A stretch of DNA of 34,212 bases from Chryseobacterium gleum (GTDB taxonomy: Bacteria > Bacteroidota > Bacteroidia > Flavobacteriales_D > Sanyastnellaceae): assembly GCA_945878635.1 (NCBI GenBank), contig CAMCTV010000012.1, positions 1 through 34,212 on the forward strand. Direction: 5' to 3'. The notes beneath the pieces are model-generated. The model was not told the DNA's origin, did not search any database, and saw only the letters and a program-made list of their open reading frames with translations. Positions 1,019 through 30,231 of the stretch are shown in pieces. Numbering within the stretch: the stretch's first letter is position 1; every line of letters begins with the position of its first letter. The position numbers were made by a program, and so were the translations under genes.

Positions 1019-2029
1019 TTAAGCGTTGGCTTTGGCGGTAGAAATGGCCGCTCTCACCTTGGCTTCGATTTCTTCTTTCAATTCGGGGTTGTCTTCCAAC
1101 AATTGCTTCACGGCATCGCGTCCTTGACCCAACTTGGTGTCACCGTAACTGAACCAGCTTCCGCTTTTCTTGATGACATTGTGGTCCACACCCATGTCGA
1201 TGATTTCACCCAACAAGGAAATGCCATGTCCATAAATGATATCAAACTCAGCTTGTCGGAAAGGAGGAGCCACTTTGTTTTTCACCACTTTTACTTTGGT
1301 GCGGTTACCGATGGCATTCTCTCCATCTTTGATTTGCGTAGAGCGGCGAATATCCAAACGAACGGACGCATAGAATTTCAAGGCATTACCACCAGTAGTG
1401 GTTTCGGGATTGCCAAACATGACCCCAATTTTTTCACGCAATTGGTTGATGAAAATGCAGCAGCAATTGGTCTTGCTGATTGAGGCGGTCAATTTGCGCA
1501 ATGCCTTGGACATCAAACGTGCTTGAACACCAACGTTCGAGTCGCCCATTTCGCCTTCAATTTCAGAACGGGGCGTTAATGCAGCCACGGAGTCAATGAC
1601 AATCAAATCAATGGCGCCAGAACGAATCAAGTTGTCAGCGATTTCCAATCCTTGCTCACCATTATCGGGTTGAGAAATCAAGAGGTTTTCGGTATCTACC
1701 CCCAAGGCTTCTGCATAAAATTTATCAAAAGCGTGCTCCGCATCGATGATGGCACAAATACCACCTTGTTTCTGCGCTTCGGCAATCGCATGAATAGCAA
1801 GGGTGGTTTTACCGGAAGATTCAGGTCCGTATATTTCAATGATACGGCCTTTGGGGTAACCGCCAATACCTAGTGCACTGTCCAATCCTACAGATCCGCT
1901 AGGGATGACTTCCATCGCTTCAACGGCATTGTCTCCCAACTTCATCACAGCCCCTTTTCCATAGGTTTTTTCCAATTTTTCCATGGCCATTTGAAGGGCC
2001 TTCAATTTTTCTTTGTTTACTTCAGACAT
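1019..2029 (-). CDS. recA: Recombinase RecA
   Basis: RecA forms ATP-dependent filaments on single-stranded DNA for homologous recombination and repair, and in many bacteria triggers self-cleavage of SOS repressors. The 336-residue product has the normal family length. Visible features are the Walker A loop GPESSGKT (residues 68-75), Walker B with LIVIDS (Asp146), and the L2 DNA-binding region with [17 protein letters not shown] near residue 210. The ATG at 2029 begins [12 protein letters not shown], a typical RecA N-terminus. The gene is monocistronic by appearance: a small membrane-protein gene ends 61 bases upstream and a terminator-like hairpin follows. Its leader holds a -7-like AATATTTG box and, just upstream, a 17-base inverted repeat that recurs exactly at 26791-26807. 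This suggests regulated expression. No lexA is present in the window. Confidence 0.98.
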
Positions 2030-2051: not shown

Positions 2052-2059
2052 CAAATATT
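2052..2059 (-). promoter_or_regulatory. Candidate recA -7 promoter box
   Basis: The minus strand reads AATATTTG, seven of eight matches to TAnnTTTG. A TTGG about 17 bases upstream could act as the -33 element and lies inside the dyad at 2071-2087. The predicted start would leave a leader of roughly 15-20 bases before the recA ATG. Confidence 0.45.
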
Positions 2060-2070
2060 TTCACTTCAGC

Positions 2071-2089
2071 TTGTAACCAATTTACAACG
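2071..2089 (-). promoter_or_regulatory. Dyad operator candidate upstream of recA (copy 1 of 2)
   Basis: On the minus strand this reads CGTTGTAAATTGGTTACAA. Bases 2071-2087 form a perfect 6-bp inverted repeat, TTGTAA and TTACAA, around a 5-base spacer. The complete 19-base string occurs once more in the window at 26789-26807. Here it ends 11 bases before the -7-like box of recA and overlaps the expected -33 region, the position of a repressor or activator site. The protein that binds it cannot be named from sequence. Confidence 0.6.
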
Positions 2090-21644: not shown

Positions 21645-24600
21645 TTATCTGATGATGGTTACCGCACCGGTGTATATTTTTCGGTCTTCTAGACCCTCAA
21701 GTATGACCTCCATTCTCCATTGGTAAGAACCATTTGGGACGTAGTAACCCGTGCTGGATTGATTGTCACCAATCCACCATTCTTTGTAGTCATTGGTTTC
21801 AAAAACGGTATTTCCCCAGCGATCAAAGACGACAAATTTGTAGAAACGAATGCGGTCAGCTCCGGAAATTACGGGTCTGAGCGCCTCATTCAAATTGTCA
21901 TTGTCAGGAGTAAAGGATGATGGCATGAAAACTACAAAGCCCTCTTCAATCATCACTTGTCGGGTCACTTCTGTTGAACATTGATTGGCATCTGTTCCTA
22001 CAAGCACAACATCATAACTTCCAGGTTCTGTGACTTCCGCAAAATTAAATGTGGTGTATGGTTCAGGTGATGTTCCATAATTGGCAAAATTCCAAGCATA
22101 ACTCACCAAGGGAGAGGTAGAATTGTCCAGGAATTGGAACTCTGGATTATCCATGGTTACGCTTTCCGGGTTGTACAAGAAGGCAACTTCTGGTTGTGGA
22201 TGAACTTCAAGCATGTCTTCATAACGCGTGGTATCGACGCATCCATTGATGTCGGTAATGGTCAATGTGATGTCATATTTTTTTGGCATCATCAAAGCAA
22301 GATTGATGCTGTTGCAATCTCCTGAGGTCTGAAGAACATCATCCAAATACCATTGGCAATCGGTGGTTCCGTTGATTAAATCGCTTTCATTGACTAAAAC
22401 AAAGTCACCTTGCGGCATACAATCTTCGAATAAATCGGGAGTGACGACGGCATCCGATGTGTCATGAATGGTAACTGTGATAAAGTCGTTGGAAAGCACG
22501 GGGCATTCTACTCCTGCTACACCAGCTACATCATAGTATGCCTCATAAGCTCCGGTTGCATTTACATTGCTTAAATCGAAAGTAGATCCATTTTCAATGA
22601 TATTGTCTTGTGCTCCGGTACCTGTGATTGGATCAATGGGTCCAATGTGCCAGATTCCATTCAAAGGCAGGCCTCCAATAGCGGACAAATCAAATTCAGC
22701 TTCATTCAGACACTTGCTCACTGCATTGGTTCCAGCTGGAGCCAAAACAGCTTGCGGGATGAAGTTGTCTAAGAACGATATTTGGTATTCATCCGACCAC
22801 TCTGAGCAGCCGGGTGCAGTGACTGTTGGATTAAAACGAACGCTGAAATAAAGCGGCTGATTAGCGGGAAATAATGCAGTGTTGTTATTCAAAAGACCAT
22901 CACTGAGCAAATCAGCATACAATTGATTGAAATCAATTGGAGCAGCAGGACCAACATTTCCAGGGCCAGGATTAAAGTAAGGAGTCAGAGGATTGGTAAA
23001 GGTGCTTCCGTTCCAAATGATTTCCCATTGGCCAGCTTGCGGATTTGTGTTTGCACCTTCCCATTGTCCAACCAGTTGAAAATTGGCATCGGTTCCGCAA
23101 CGAATCTCTTGATTGGGAGAAGTAGGAAGGATAGCAGGTGTTCCGCCGATTTCATTCCATGAAACTTGCCCAATGGTGGGAGCAACAAAAGGATTGAATG
23201 TATGGTCGATGGTGCACCCATATGTATCTTCCAAAGTGATATCTAAAACATAACCTGATGTTAATCCGGAGTAGGTCATGTTGGCTGGATTTGCATTATC
23301 GGCATCATTGATGGCTACAATAGCACCCGCCGCTGAATTTAATAAAGGTGCAGACCAAGTAAAAGGATAGCTGCCAGCGTGTACATCAAAAGTGATACCG
23401 CTAGATGGACAGTCAGGCACGATGTTTTCTACTTCAATCAGCGGTGTAAATACCAACTCCCAATCAGTGGTAAAACCACCGCAGATTAAGCTTCCTGAAA
23501 ATGGATCATAGCCTGTGGCGAAGATGTTTCCAGTATATGGAGTTGTTGGATTTCCAGCATTGATTTCTGCAGATGGAATAAGCAAGGGAACTGTCCCGGA
23601 TGCACCCAACAATGAATTCAAATTATAAATGGTGACAATTCGGGCATTGATGACCAATGGCATATCAATAGGGTCATTGATTGAATTGAGCAATGCGATG
23701 ATTTGATCTTGTGTGGAGTAGTTGGTTCCATTGAATGTGTTGTCAATACTCAAGGGATTGGCAATACTGGGCGTTGCACCAGAAAAATCAATCGGTTCAA
23801 AGTCCCATAAGATTTGTTGACCAGTTGCGGGATCTACTAGGATTAAACCCAATGCGCGTTGGTCAGGAATCGGTTGGTAATCATTGGGCGTTACTTCTGC
23901 ATAGGCAATGGCCGGGGGAGTAAAGTTATTGTTCGAGGTGAAGTCAATCGATTCATTGGGGCACAACACCAATAGTGAGGGATTGCCGGCCGGTGATTCC
24001 GCAGGACTATAAGTACCCATATCTACAATGTCACAATTACAGGCTCCAGGCATTGTAAACGGTATTGATGCAGTACAAGTTAATCCAGTACCGTTTGGAT
24101 ATTCAAAATCAACCACCAAGTTGTTGGTGTAGGGCTCTGTTAAGCCAACACCTACTGGAGGTGTCGGTATTTGGGCAAAATAGGAAAGAGCAGGGAAGTT
24201 GCCAGTGGTGAAATTGTTGGAGAAATTGTCGTATTCATTCAAGGTGTTCTTGGTGAACACAGGATTGGCAACAGTGTCCAAAGTTGAGGTGTAATAGATG
24301 TGCGCGTCTAAACCGTTTGGTGGGTAATCAAAGTCAAAACTAACTTCCAATTCAAAGAAATTTCCATAACCAATACAATCAGGGATAGCATTGGTTACTT
24401 GAAGGTTGGTAATTTGACAAGTGCAAGGATCTTGGAAGAAAGGATTCCCCGCAGTGTTATTAACGACAAAATTAAAGGCATTGGTTAACACCGCAGGAGT
24501 TGATGGATATGTTTCGTTGACCAAGGTGCTGAAGCTGCAAGTGCCATCAGAAATGGAGAAGGATAGTGTATTGGCATCGTTATAAACGATGTTGGTATAG

Positions 24601-26756
24601 TCCAAATCAATGGTTGAAGTTCCAGCAGGAAGAGTAGATAGGTCAAAAGTATTGGCTGCAATATTTCCATTTACAGAGACTGCAACAGGAATTCCATTGT
24701 TGAAAAAGGATAAGATATTATTGGCTGACATCACATCAAAGCCTCCAATGTTGGCAGTTAGTGCAACATCAAAGGCGGATCCTTGTGCGGTCGAGGTGCA
24801 ATTGTTTACTATAGGATTTACCAACTCGATTTGAGGAATGGTAATCGTTTCTGGTGCGGGCAGCGTGCATGTTGAGCTGAGATCGTTTCCGCCTGCGTCA
24901 ACGATGGTGAATGTGATGTCGCAAAGGGCGTCACTGGACAAAGCCAAAGCACCTTGCGTATTGAGTGGAGCAAAAACACCAAAGGACCATGAATTGTTGT
25001 TTATGGTATTAATGACATTGGCATTACCAATGGTCCAAGGTTGTGTTCCACCACATTCATACTCCATGGTCAAAGTAGAACCTATGGGAAGTGCATTGAC
25101 ATTTAAATCAACCTCAACATCGTAATAGTTGTCCCCAGCACCACCGACAGGCATGGGCTGACAAGTGGTGGTGATGGTTTGGAATTCAACCAAGCAACCA
25201 CAAGCTGCCGGTGAAACCAAATTGGACGTCGCAGTGCAAGTGGGCAATGCATCAAAGTATGCAGTTACTGCGTTGGTTGCACTTCCATTGGCATACATGG
25301 TGAAATCAATATCCAGAGGACTTCCTACAAAAGGTGCAGGAAAACTCTGCACTTGTTGACCATTTACTTCAATGATTAGGTTTCCGGAAGCGGGCGGGTT
25401 AAAGAAAGATACGAAGTTTTGGTTGGTATTGTCTATCGTAATTAATCCATTGGTTTCATCGCACAAAGATGGTGTTACACAGATAGGTAGGTTAATGCCG
25501 CAAGGGGCTGTACCCACTGTTGGGGGCGGATAGCTGTACCCGCTAGGTACACATTCACCGCATCCACCACCATAGCTTCCAAAAACATTATCACCTCCGC
25601 TAAGAACATTAATGTTGAGGTCGACTATGTTAGCACTGTTGATTGTTGCGGTGATGCATCCGGTGAAGGTGCAACTTCCACCATCGCCCCAGTTGGTTCC
25701 TGGTGAGCCAGAGCTATTGTAGTCAAAATAGTAGCCAACAGTGTTGTTAGTCCCTGATAAATCATCCGTTCCACCACAAGGAGTGGATGGATTGATGGTA
25801 GTACTATACACCCAGTTTCCAACGCCTCCGCCACAATTGGCAGGAAGGACATCTTGGGCAATGGCTGTCCATCCTGGGCCCAATTGGAATTGAATACCAT
25901 CCATCCATAGACCATTCATACTTTGCCAATCAATTTCATAGCAAATTTGAACATTTGTCCCGATAACAGGCGCAGCTAAAGCCGCGGCAGGGGTAAAAGT
26001 GAAAGACTCTGCACCTCCGGGAATGCAATCGTTCAAAGTTGGGATGGTTCCTTGGCACATGCAGTTTGAACCTAGAATGACATCACCAACAGTTTCAGGA
26101 TTGCCATCATCGCAGGTCATTCCGGTATATACGGTTCCGCATTGGTCGTTGCAATCCGTTGAATTGGTTACCCATCCGGGCTCAGGATTGCAAGTTGAAA
26201 CGGTAACTCCAGTTTCTCCATATCCATCGCCGTCCGCGTCAGGACTGTACGTTTGAGGGCTAGCACATTCAGCACTGCACATACTAAAGGATATATTTCC
26301 TCCACCATAAGCCCAAAGTTGAACATAGATGGGGGTTCCCGCAGTTTGCGTTACTGTGATTTGCGGCATCAATCCAGGACCTGTGTCATCATCGCAATCG
26401 AGTAAAGTGTAAGTGTTGGTTGCTGCATTGAACGTGTAAGCGGCCATACCTGCGTCTACAGTACCAGAAGGGTTTAAGAATAAAACACCGGTGCTGGGAA
26501 CATTGATTAAAACCCAAACGTCAGGTTGTTGATTGCCTGCCCAACTAGGGTTATTGGCACAGCCTGGTCCACCGGGATTAGCTGAAGGAGTGTACTGCGC
26601 AGGATCTACATTGATGGAAATACATCCAGTTGTTGGATCTTGGGTAAAAGCGCTGTTAGGCTCATCCTGACCAAACACGCTATTAGAGTTGCACACCATT
26701 GCGATGGTGGTGAAAAGAATCGAATAAACGAATATCGAAGTGCCTCGGTTTTTCAT
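21645..26756 (-). CDS. Giant secreted modular protein with PPC-like, MopE-like and PKD-like modules and T9SS type B sorting domain
   Basis: I start at ATG 26756 (MKNRGTSIFVYSILFTTIAM), which gives a normal signal peptide and 1703 residues; a GTG start at 26789 would put an atypical segment before it. Residues about 45-165 resemble a bacterial pre-peptidase C-terminal-like beta domain (QPDVWVLINVPSTGVLFL, LLDCDDDTGP). Next come DADGDGYGETGVTVSTC with TDCND, a MopE-like/calcium-loop motif, and the Cys-rich CDDGNPETVGDVILGSNCMC. The middle holds repeated modules opening with a C-x-C pair (CGCLVEF near 518, CTCQITN near 777, CNCDIVD near 905). PKD-like modules with YAWNFANYG precede the type B sorting domain (PSSFTPDNDNLNEALRPV to VTIIR). 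It is presumably exported by T9SS and displayed on the surface as an adhesin or matrix protein; no catalytic domain is recognised. Lys is scarce and Asn/Thr/Pro high, typical of such proteins. Confidence 0.93.
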   Translation of the reverse strand: MKNRGTSIFVYSILFTTIAMVCNSNSVFGQDEPNSAFTQDPTTGCISINVDPAQYTPSANPGGPGCANNPSWAGNQQPDVWVLINVPSTGVLFLNPSGTVDAGMAAYTFNAATNTYTLLDCDDDTGPGLMPQITVTQTAGTPIYVQLWAYGGGNISFSMCSAECASPQTYSPDADGDGYGETGVTVSTCNPEPGWVTNSTDCNDQCGTVYTGMTCDDGNPETVGDVILGSNCMCQGTIPTLNDCIPGGAESFTFTPAAALAAPVIGTNVQICYEIDWQSMNGLWMDGIQFQLGPGWTAIAQDVLPANCGGGVGNWVYSTTINPSTPCGGTDDLSGTNNTVGYYFDYNSSGSPGTNWGDGGSCTFTGCITATINSANIVDLNINVLSGGDNVFGSYGGGCGECVPSGYSYPPPTVGTAPCGINLPICVTPSLCDETNGLITIDNTNQNFVSFFNPPASGNLIIEVNGQQVQSFPAPFVGSPLDIDFTMYANGSATNAVTAYFDALPTCTATSNLVSPAACGCLVEFQTITTTCQPMPVGGAGDNYYDVEVDLNVNALPIGSTLTMEYECGGTQPWTIGNANVINTINNNSWSFGVFAPLNTQGALALSSDALCDITFTIVDAGGNDLSSTCTLPAPETITIPQIELVNPIVNNCTSTAQGSAFDVALTANIGGFDVMSANNILSFFNNGIPVAVSVNGNIAANTFDLSTLPAGTSTIDLDYTNIVYNDANTLSFSISDGTCSFSTLVNETYPSTPAVLTNAFNFVVNNTAGNPFFQDPCTCQITNLQVTNAIPDCIGYGNFFELEVSFDFDYPPNGLDAHIYYTSTLDTVANPVFTKNTLNEYDNFSNNFTTGNFPALSYFAQIPTPPVGVGLTEPYTNNLVVDFEYPNGTGLTCTASIPFTMPGACNCDIVDMGTYSPAESPAGNPSLLVLCPNESIDFTSNNNFTPPAIAYAEVTPNDYQPIPDQRALGLILVDPATGQQILWDFEPIDFSGATPSIANPLSIDNTFNGTNYSTQDQIIALLNSINDPIDMPLVINARIVTIYNLNSLLGASGTVPLLIPSAEINAGNPTTPYTGNIFATGYDPFSGSLICGGFTTDWELVFTPLIEVENIVPDCPSSGITFDVHAGSYPFTWSAPLLNSAAGAIVAINDADNANPANMTYSGLTSGYVLDITLEDTYGCTIDHTFNPFVAPTIGQVSWNEIGGTPAILPTSPNQEIRCGTDANFQLVGQWEGANTNPQAGQWEIIWNGSTFTNPLTPYFNPGPGNVGPAAPIDFNQLYADLLSDGLLNNNTALFPANQPLYFSVRFNPTVTAPGCSEWSDEYQISFLDNFIPQAVLAPAGTNAVSKCLNEAEFDLSAIGGLPLNGIWHIGPIDPITGTGAQDNIIENGSTFDLSNVNATGAYEAYYDVAGVAGVECPVLSNDFITVTIHDTSDAVVTPDLFEDCMPQGDFVLVNESDLINGTTDCQWYLDDVLQTSGDCNSINLALMMPKKYDITLTITDINGCVDTTRYEDMLEVHPQPEVAFLYNPESVTMDNPEFQFLDNSTSPLVSYAWNFANYGTSPEPYTTFNFAEVTEPGSYDVVLVGTDANQCSTEVTRQVMIEEGFVVFMPSSFTPDNDNLNEALRPVISGADRIRFYKFVVFDRWGNTVFETNDYKEWWIGDNQSSTGYYVPNGSYQWRMEVILEGLEDRKIYTGAVTIIR

Positions 26757-26788: not shown

Positions 26789-26807
26789 CGTTGTAAATTG
26801 GTTACAA
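26789..26807 (+). promoter_or_regulatory. Dyad operator candidate in the divergent promoter region (copy 2 of 2)
   Basis: CGTTGTAAATTGGTTACAA is identical over all 19 bases to the element upstream of recA. The perfect arms TTGTAA (26791-26796) and TTACAA (26802-26807) flank ATTGG. Read toward the plus-strand gene at 26843 it has the same orientation as at recA. It ends 10 bases before a GAGTTTTG box (26818-26825), against 11 bases at recA. The region is only 86 bases and must serve two divergent genes. Confidence 0.6.
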
Positions 26808-26842
26808 TATTGGAAGAGAGTTTTGCTTCAAATAATAACAAG

Positions 26843-27229
26843 ATGCAAAACGTACCTTACTACCTTCAAGACACTAACCATGCTCAGTTTGTTGCATGGC
26901 AATCTGATCAATATCAACGTGAGAAAGGCTGCTTGGCTTTTATGGGTGGGCAATGTTTTATTCACCCCATGAAAGACGGACGTTGGCATGTGATGAATGG
27001 TCCAACACATCGTTGGCAAATTGTTGAGCAATTGGATGTATTTGACTGGCAAATTCTGAAGGCTTTTTGTGCCATTGAAGAAAATGAACAACAAAAAATG
27101 AGGAGTTTCCTGACATCCAAGTGCCAGAACTTTAAAGAGGTGCTCTTGCGTTTGCCGCAAAACAACGTGAGTTGGAAAAACCATTTCCTAACGCAATTCT
27201 CAAAAGCACAACAAGAGTGGGAGGCCTGA
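26843..27229 (+). CDS. Unrecognised 128-residue protein sharing the recA upstream element
   Basis: I do not recognise this protein. The ATG at 26843 begins MQNVPYYLQDTNHAQFVAWQ; a TTG at 26798 in the same frame lies inside the dyad and is unlikely. No signal peptide or transmembrane segment is seen, so it is probably cytoplasmic. The first half has several aromatic and Gly turns (GCLAFMGGQCF, GRWHVMNGPTHRWQIVEQL) that suggest a small beta domain. The second half is helical and polar (IEENEQQKMRSFLTSKCQ to QFSKAQQEWEA). It contains three Cys and is rich in Trp and Gln. It is divergent from the giant secreted-protein gene and lies 49 bases before ligA on the same strand. The upstream dyad shared with recA and the ligA neighbour suggest a link to DNA repair; this is inference only. 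Confidence 0.75.
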   Translation: MQNVPYYLQDTNHAQFVAWQSDQYQREKGCLAFMGGQCFIHPMKDGRWHVMNGPTHRWQIVEQLDVFDWQILKAFCAIEENEQQKMRSFLTSKCQNFKEVLLRLPQNNVSWKNHFLTQFSKAQQEWEA

Positions 27230-27245
27230 TGCATGTACAGCATAA

Positions 27246-30231
<2,986 letters not shown>

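Follow-up and report, generated by a model that had tools for sequence, protein, structure and literature searches.

Which protein acts on a palindromic sequence that stands before recA and recurs, letter for letter, in a second promoter of the window (the whole stretch of 34,212 nucleotides that was analysed)? The 19-mer CGTTGTAAATTGGTTACAA was recovered at both places where the original prediction had put identical copies, 2071-2089 (minus strand) and 26789-26807 (plus strand); it extends the 17-mer of the recA promoter to 2089 and begins at 26789 at the ORF128 site (Table 1). With both orientations checked, this pair is the only exact repeat of at least 17 bases in the window, and the chance expectation for 19-mer pairs is about 0.0065, in agreement with the claim of a repeat beyond chance. 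The inner TTGTAA-N5-TTACAA is indeed a perfect inverted repeat, and its mismatch-free copies in the window are these two sites only. The -7-like elements predicted 11 and 10 nt past the 17-mer were likewise found, at 2059-2052 on the minus strand and at 26818-26825 on the plus strand. The element is a genuine regulatory box, and the analyses described below concern its targets, its geometry and its probable binder.

Table 1. Positions of the box copies, promoter elements and genes considered in this study.
Feature	Position	Strand	Remark
recA-promoter box TTGTAAATTGGTTACAA (17-mer)	2071..2087	minus	exact sequence; conserved in genus and family
ORF128-promoter box TTGTAAATTGGTTACAA (17-mer)	26791..26807	plus	exact sequence; kept in six genus genomes
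-7-like element AATATTTG, recA promoter	2052..2059	minus	TTTG begins 16 nt past box
-7-like element GAGTTTTG, ORF128 promoter	26818..26825	plus	TTTG begins 15 nt past box
recA	1019..2029	minus	ORF of 336 aa
ORF128, box target	26843..27229	plus	start codon 35 nt after box; same-box orthologues in G001-G005
ligA, NAD-dependent DNA ligase	27279..29330	plus	ORF; identity read from N-terminal sequence
Conserved ~78-aa target protein, 79-aa ORF in this genome	L006:1387-1623		
wHTH-WYL-WCX protein gene	G000:C36:7316-8335	minus	outside window

Box sites and target genes

In the 2.35-Mb genome TTGTAA-N5-TTACAA occurs at six sites, as against one for the reversed control pattern. At each of the six, the strand of the gene that follows reads TTGTAAAT-N3-TTACAA, and the search for the motif near start codons that had been proposed with the original prediction placed every one of them 31-45 nt before a start codon, counted from the box end. 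The targets are recA, ORF128, an AAA ATPase gene (L001) and ORFs of 110 aa (L004), 290 aa (L005) and 79 aa (L006). A genome scan allowing two mismatches was uninformative (202 matches vs 307 for the control). Across the seven genomes of the genus the pattern TYGTAAATNNNTTACRA gave 36 matches vs 2 for its control, and these matches precede the same genes from species to species, namely the 79-aa ORF, ORF128, recA, the ATPase gene, the 290-aa ORF and the 110-aa ORF. Additional boxes of G006 stand before SRAP and before a 117-aa ORF followed by rmuC, and in G014 a box lies ahead of an SbcD-like phosphoesterase gene, so that the anticipated occurrence of the box before repair genes was observed among the relatives.

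Each target retains its own box across species though the flanks differ. Short palindromes can scatter as repeats, and scatter without promoter preference had been named beforehand as the outcome that would speak against an operator. Such a dispersed repeat, or a mere chance match, is nevertheless hardly credible for this element, since reversed control patterns yield almost nothing, the box of each target is kept across species while its surroundings change, and the conservation at recA contradicts it.

The second site had been assigned to a divergent promoter. It does lie between divergent genes, but its orientation, its spacing and its conservation in the genus fit the rightward ORF128, for which a Pfam search matched no family. 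The ligA gene begins 49 nt behind ORF128 and may share its transcript; it is the next gene after ORF128 in four of the six species, G001 and G003 being the exceptions. Because the box is kept in these two species as well, ORF128 was regarded as the target, and ligA was rejected as a conserved target of this site. The gene divergent from ORF128 (21645-26755, minus strand) has a very long product that begins like a signal peptide; genus members retain some secreted-type gene opposite ORF128, and the encoded protein varies between species. It is the less likely box target, having neither orientation nor spacing in its support.

The commonest box target is a conserved protein of about 78 aa (SRPxGYNxYAWNVxKK...EFYxM), represented in this genome by the 79-aa ORF, which lies with its box upstream of a uvrD-like helicase gene. 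The predicted fold of a 77-aa target protein gave no PDB match below E 0.001. Fusions of the ~78-aa protein to TPR-like repeats were seen in some lineages (L171, L173, L181). Moreover, IS1595/ISXO2-type transposase genes of two genera are preceded by boxes (L327 and L332 in G006, L093 in G014), and a transposon may therefore have acquired the damage box.

Conservation at recA and promoter geometry

RecA orthologues were found in 38 of 40 relatives. Conservation of the box upstream of recA across the genus, proposed earlier as a check, was observed: G004, G005 and G006 have the box without any change, G001 and G003 with slight changes. It is kept in the family as well, where it reads CGTAAAT-N3-TTACG at about the same position, and reaches other families. 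The outer bases, C..G for the larger part of the family, are T..A in this genus. In genomes with bcp followed by recA the box stands ahead of bcp, for example as ACGTAAATAGATTACGA (G027) or ACGTAAATAGGTTACGT (G038).

For the analysis of promoter geometry 89 boxes were pooled from all loci with one count per promoter. The consensus obtained from the box promoters is GTAAAT-N3-TTAC, the 17-bp dyad is centred on a base, and the middle position of N3 holds C or G in 98% of the 89 boxes. The TTnG of the -7 element lies 15 or 16 nt past the 17-mer in 70 of the 89 promoters, and TTTG was found at these distances in 54 of them and is nearly missing elsewhere nearby; these counts are not independent events, because the promoters are related by descent, and the same spacing is common to several unrelated genes. 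The combined pattern box+13N+TAnnTTnG had 13 matches in the family genomes and 0 for the control. The -7 elements of box promoters are often imperfect. As the TTnG follows the box at a fixed distance of 15-16 nt, the bound protein would cover the -33 region.

Palindrome and position had originally been read as an operator. A conserved regulatory site was confirmed, but the interval between the -7 element and a box lying over the -33 region is fixed, and this makes an activator site likelier than the operator of a repressor, which needs no such constancy.

A WYL-domain protein as candidate regulator

In most of the family a box stands behind the gene of a WYL-domain protein, on that gene's own strand and no more than about 50 bp past its stop codon; in G010, G014 and G017 box pairs lie directly behind this gene, and of 80 loci taken from named Flavobacteriales genomes many also have a box behind the WYL gene. 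There it most often precedes the conserved ORF of about 78 aa. In this genus no box was found near the WYL gene itself. Strong matches to the WYL protein (E below 1e-60) were obtained in 33 of 40 genomes, this genome included, with one strong orthologue in most genomes and weaker paralogues in some. The protein is 99% identical to its counterpart in a Flavobacteriales metagenome-assembled genome, isolate CE-Oct18-124.

The distribution of the recA box follows that of the protein. Of the 49 genomes that have the WYL protein, 25 had a perfect GTAAAT-N3-TTAC, scored within 900 bp of recA, as against 0 of the 61 that lack it, a group to which three genomes were assigned because their WYL match was weak (Fisher p 2e-11, uncorrected for kinship, the counts not being independent). 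For the class sample alone the numbers were 8 of 21 vs 0 of 59. Among the 24 of 49 WYL-protein genomes that have no perfect recA box, some have one base changed (GTAAGT in G007, G008 and G009) and some distant families have nothing. In G022 (86% complete), where a WYL orthologue was not found, the recA box appears decayed, reading ATGTAAATGGGGGACGAT (L025).

The orthologue of G017 contains the domains PF13280 (WYL, E 1.7e-21) and PF25583 (WCX, E 5.7e-9), and an N-terminal winged HTH missed by Pfam is predicted from helices at 5-18, 28-40 and 49-61 and strands at 71-82. For the near-identical L153 protein a structure was predicted (mean pLDDT 81, pTM 0.52) that is composed of a winged HTH, a helical linker, a WYL barrel and a WCX domain. 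Its best PDB matches in Foldseek were PafBC with RNA polymerase and DriD with single-stranded DNA (ssDNA) and DNA, with CapW and BrxR behind, at TM-scores of only 0.34-0.45, which are low probably because the domain angles differ; sequence profiles were likewise nearest to PafBC and DriD. Whereas the original prediction had left the binding protein unnamed, gene linkage and co-occurrence thus provide a strong candidate. Judged from sequence, the box is most likely bound by a WYL-domain activator related to the ssDNA sensors PafBC and DriD, and its palindromic form suggests a homodimer.

Within the helix predicted to read the DNA (49-61), position 53 holds either E or D. Each of the 30 proteins with E goes with boxes ending in TTACG, and 19 of the 22 with D go with TTACA. 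In a tree built without the recognition-helix region residue 53 changes three times, each time together with the A in at least some members. This covariation was rejected as proof, significance being unreachable with three changes in the tree.

The same protein could bind the box and repress, in the manner of BrxR and CapW, until released by a ligand after damage. These WYL repressors are among the fold matches, and a protein over the -33 region could equally block the polymerase, but the constant -7 spacing over many unrelated genes, the imperfect -7 elements, and a fold and domain composition (WCX present) nearer to the activators PafBC and DriD make repression unlikely. Less probable still is a CRP/FNR-type factor, as brought up in the original prediction, or another palindrome binder, with the WYL gene as a mere neighbour or target. 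The half-site TTGTAA loosely resembles CRP/FNR half-sites, and since the box often stands behind the WYL gene and before its neighbour, linkage alone could mark a target. However, the dyads of CRP and FNR are even-spaced (TGTGA-N6-TCACA and TTGAT-N4-ATCAA), unlike the odd 17-bp dyad with its axis on a base; moreover, the recA box is missing from genomes without the WYL protein, and this genus kept the protein after the linkage was lost. The earlier suggestion was not supported.

In the Bacteroidetes the role at recA could also be expected of the non-canonical LexA, an S24 peptidase repressor with a CI-like HTH, whose site is CTAA-N5-TTAG with diverged versions known (PMC8565304), among them a palindrome confirmed in Elizabethkingia (PMC8565304). 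A diverged site of this repressor would match the box in phylum, in its role at recA and in the dyad-N5-dyad spacing (PMC8565304), although the half-site is another one: the recA box GTAA-N5-TTAC fits neither CTAA-N5-TTAG nor GGA-N5-TCC. PF00717 represents the S24 domain, which is the catalytic part of LexA in both its canonical and its Bacteroidetes form. It had no match in the seven genomes of the genus (this genome being 93% complete) nor in G013, G015 and G024, all of them box carriers, and is present in many other relatives. The promoters of the relatives' S24 genes that were read contained no GTAA-N5-TTAC box, a few having CTAA-N5-TTAG, and the box adjoins the WYL gene instead. The diverged LexA site was therefore rejected, as the box is present in the genus and the S24 gene was not detected; repression of recA by such a LexA is considered very improbable. 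Because the box most likely binds a WYL activator, DNA repair would in this genus probably be controlled without the usual LexA repressor.

Proposed mechanism and relation to known WYL systems

It is considered probable that a WYL activator on GTAAAT-N3-TTAC, presumably sensing ssDNA, drives a LexA-independent damage regulon from recA. The proposal draws on the box with its conservation, spacing, orientation and targets, on the linkage of box and WYL gene and their joint occurrence, and on the S24 domain undetected in the genus, all of which were read from genome sequences; direct binding by the WYL protein, activation rather than repression, the ssDNA signal and induction by damage would follow by analogy with PafBC and DriD. 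Single-stranded DNA arising at damaged or stalled forks would bind the WYL domains and switch the protein on, as in DriD and PafBC. The protein, probably as a homodimer, would then sit on GTAAAT-N3-TTAC over the -33 region and help RNA polymerase to start at recA and ORF128, perhaps with ligA; the 79-aa ORF, the AAA ATPase gene and a few others would be activated as well.

DriD of Caulobacter crescentus, the activator of an SOS-independent damage response, shares the wHTH-WYL-WCX architecture and is among the best fold matches. Its palindromic sites overlap the -35 region, and their interval to the weak -10 elements is constant (PMC12340889), a geometry comparable to the position over the -33 region with a fixed -7 element observed here. 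The two differ in site (ATACGAC-N7-GTCGTAT in DriD, GTAAAT-N3-TTAC here), in sequence (about 17% identity over the fold alignment) and in regulon, as DriD controls didA, bapE, recJ and dnaG beside a LexA SOS response, whereas here recA is at the core and LexA was not found. PafBC of mycobacteria, the best Foldseek match, is a WYL damage activator at recA and other repair genes that acts by sigma adaptation and is activated by ssDNA (PMC11804915); unlike the single gene and palindrome found here, it is a heterodimer, and its site is not a palindrome. PafBC and DriD belong to class A of the WYL regulators; according to the PafBC authors, proteins of this class are common in Bacteroidota (PMC6789036), and a literature search of partial coverage returned no description of a WYL damage regulator in this phylum. 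WYL damage activators as such are already known; the lineage, the DNA code and the regulon appear to be new.

The non-canonical LexA was reported in 2021 as running the SOS response of Bacteroidetes, and for clades lacking this LexA no damage switch was known. If true, control of recA by a WYL activator would fill this gap for at least one genus and extend regulation of the PafBC/DriD type, with a DNA code of its own, to a further phylum. The analysis names candidate damage genes, among them a small conserved family without a fold match, and the diverging sites and recognition helices provide a set for testing DNA choice by WYL regulators. The joint reading, in which an ssDNA-sensing WYL activator drives recA and the ~78-aa family and, through the IS1595-type box, transposition may answer damage, is held with little better than even confidence.

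Further observations were made at the periphery of the regulon and of its candidate regulator. In this genus the gene of a protein of about 125 aa that ends in DDLPF, an SSB-like tail, precedes the WYL gene by 11-12 bp (L153:5600-6000; L119); such a neighbour was rejected as a general rule, having been seen at five loci only. The boxes of recA and ORF128 have common central bases within a genome, and these differ together between species, being TGG/TGG here (2071-2087, 26791-26807) and TCA/TCA in G001 (L318, L312) and G003 (L326, L314). The central bases at the other targets stay CCT or CCA.
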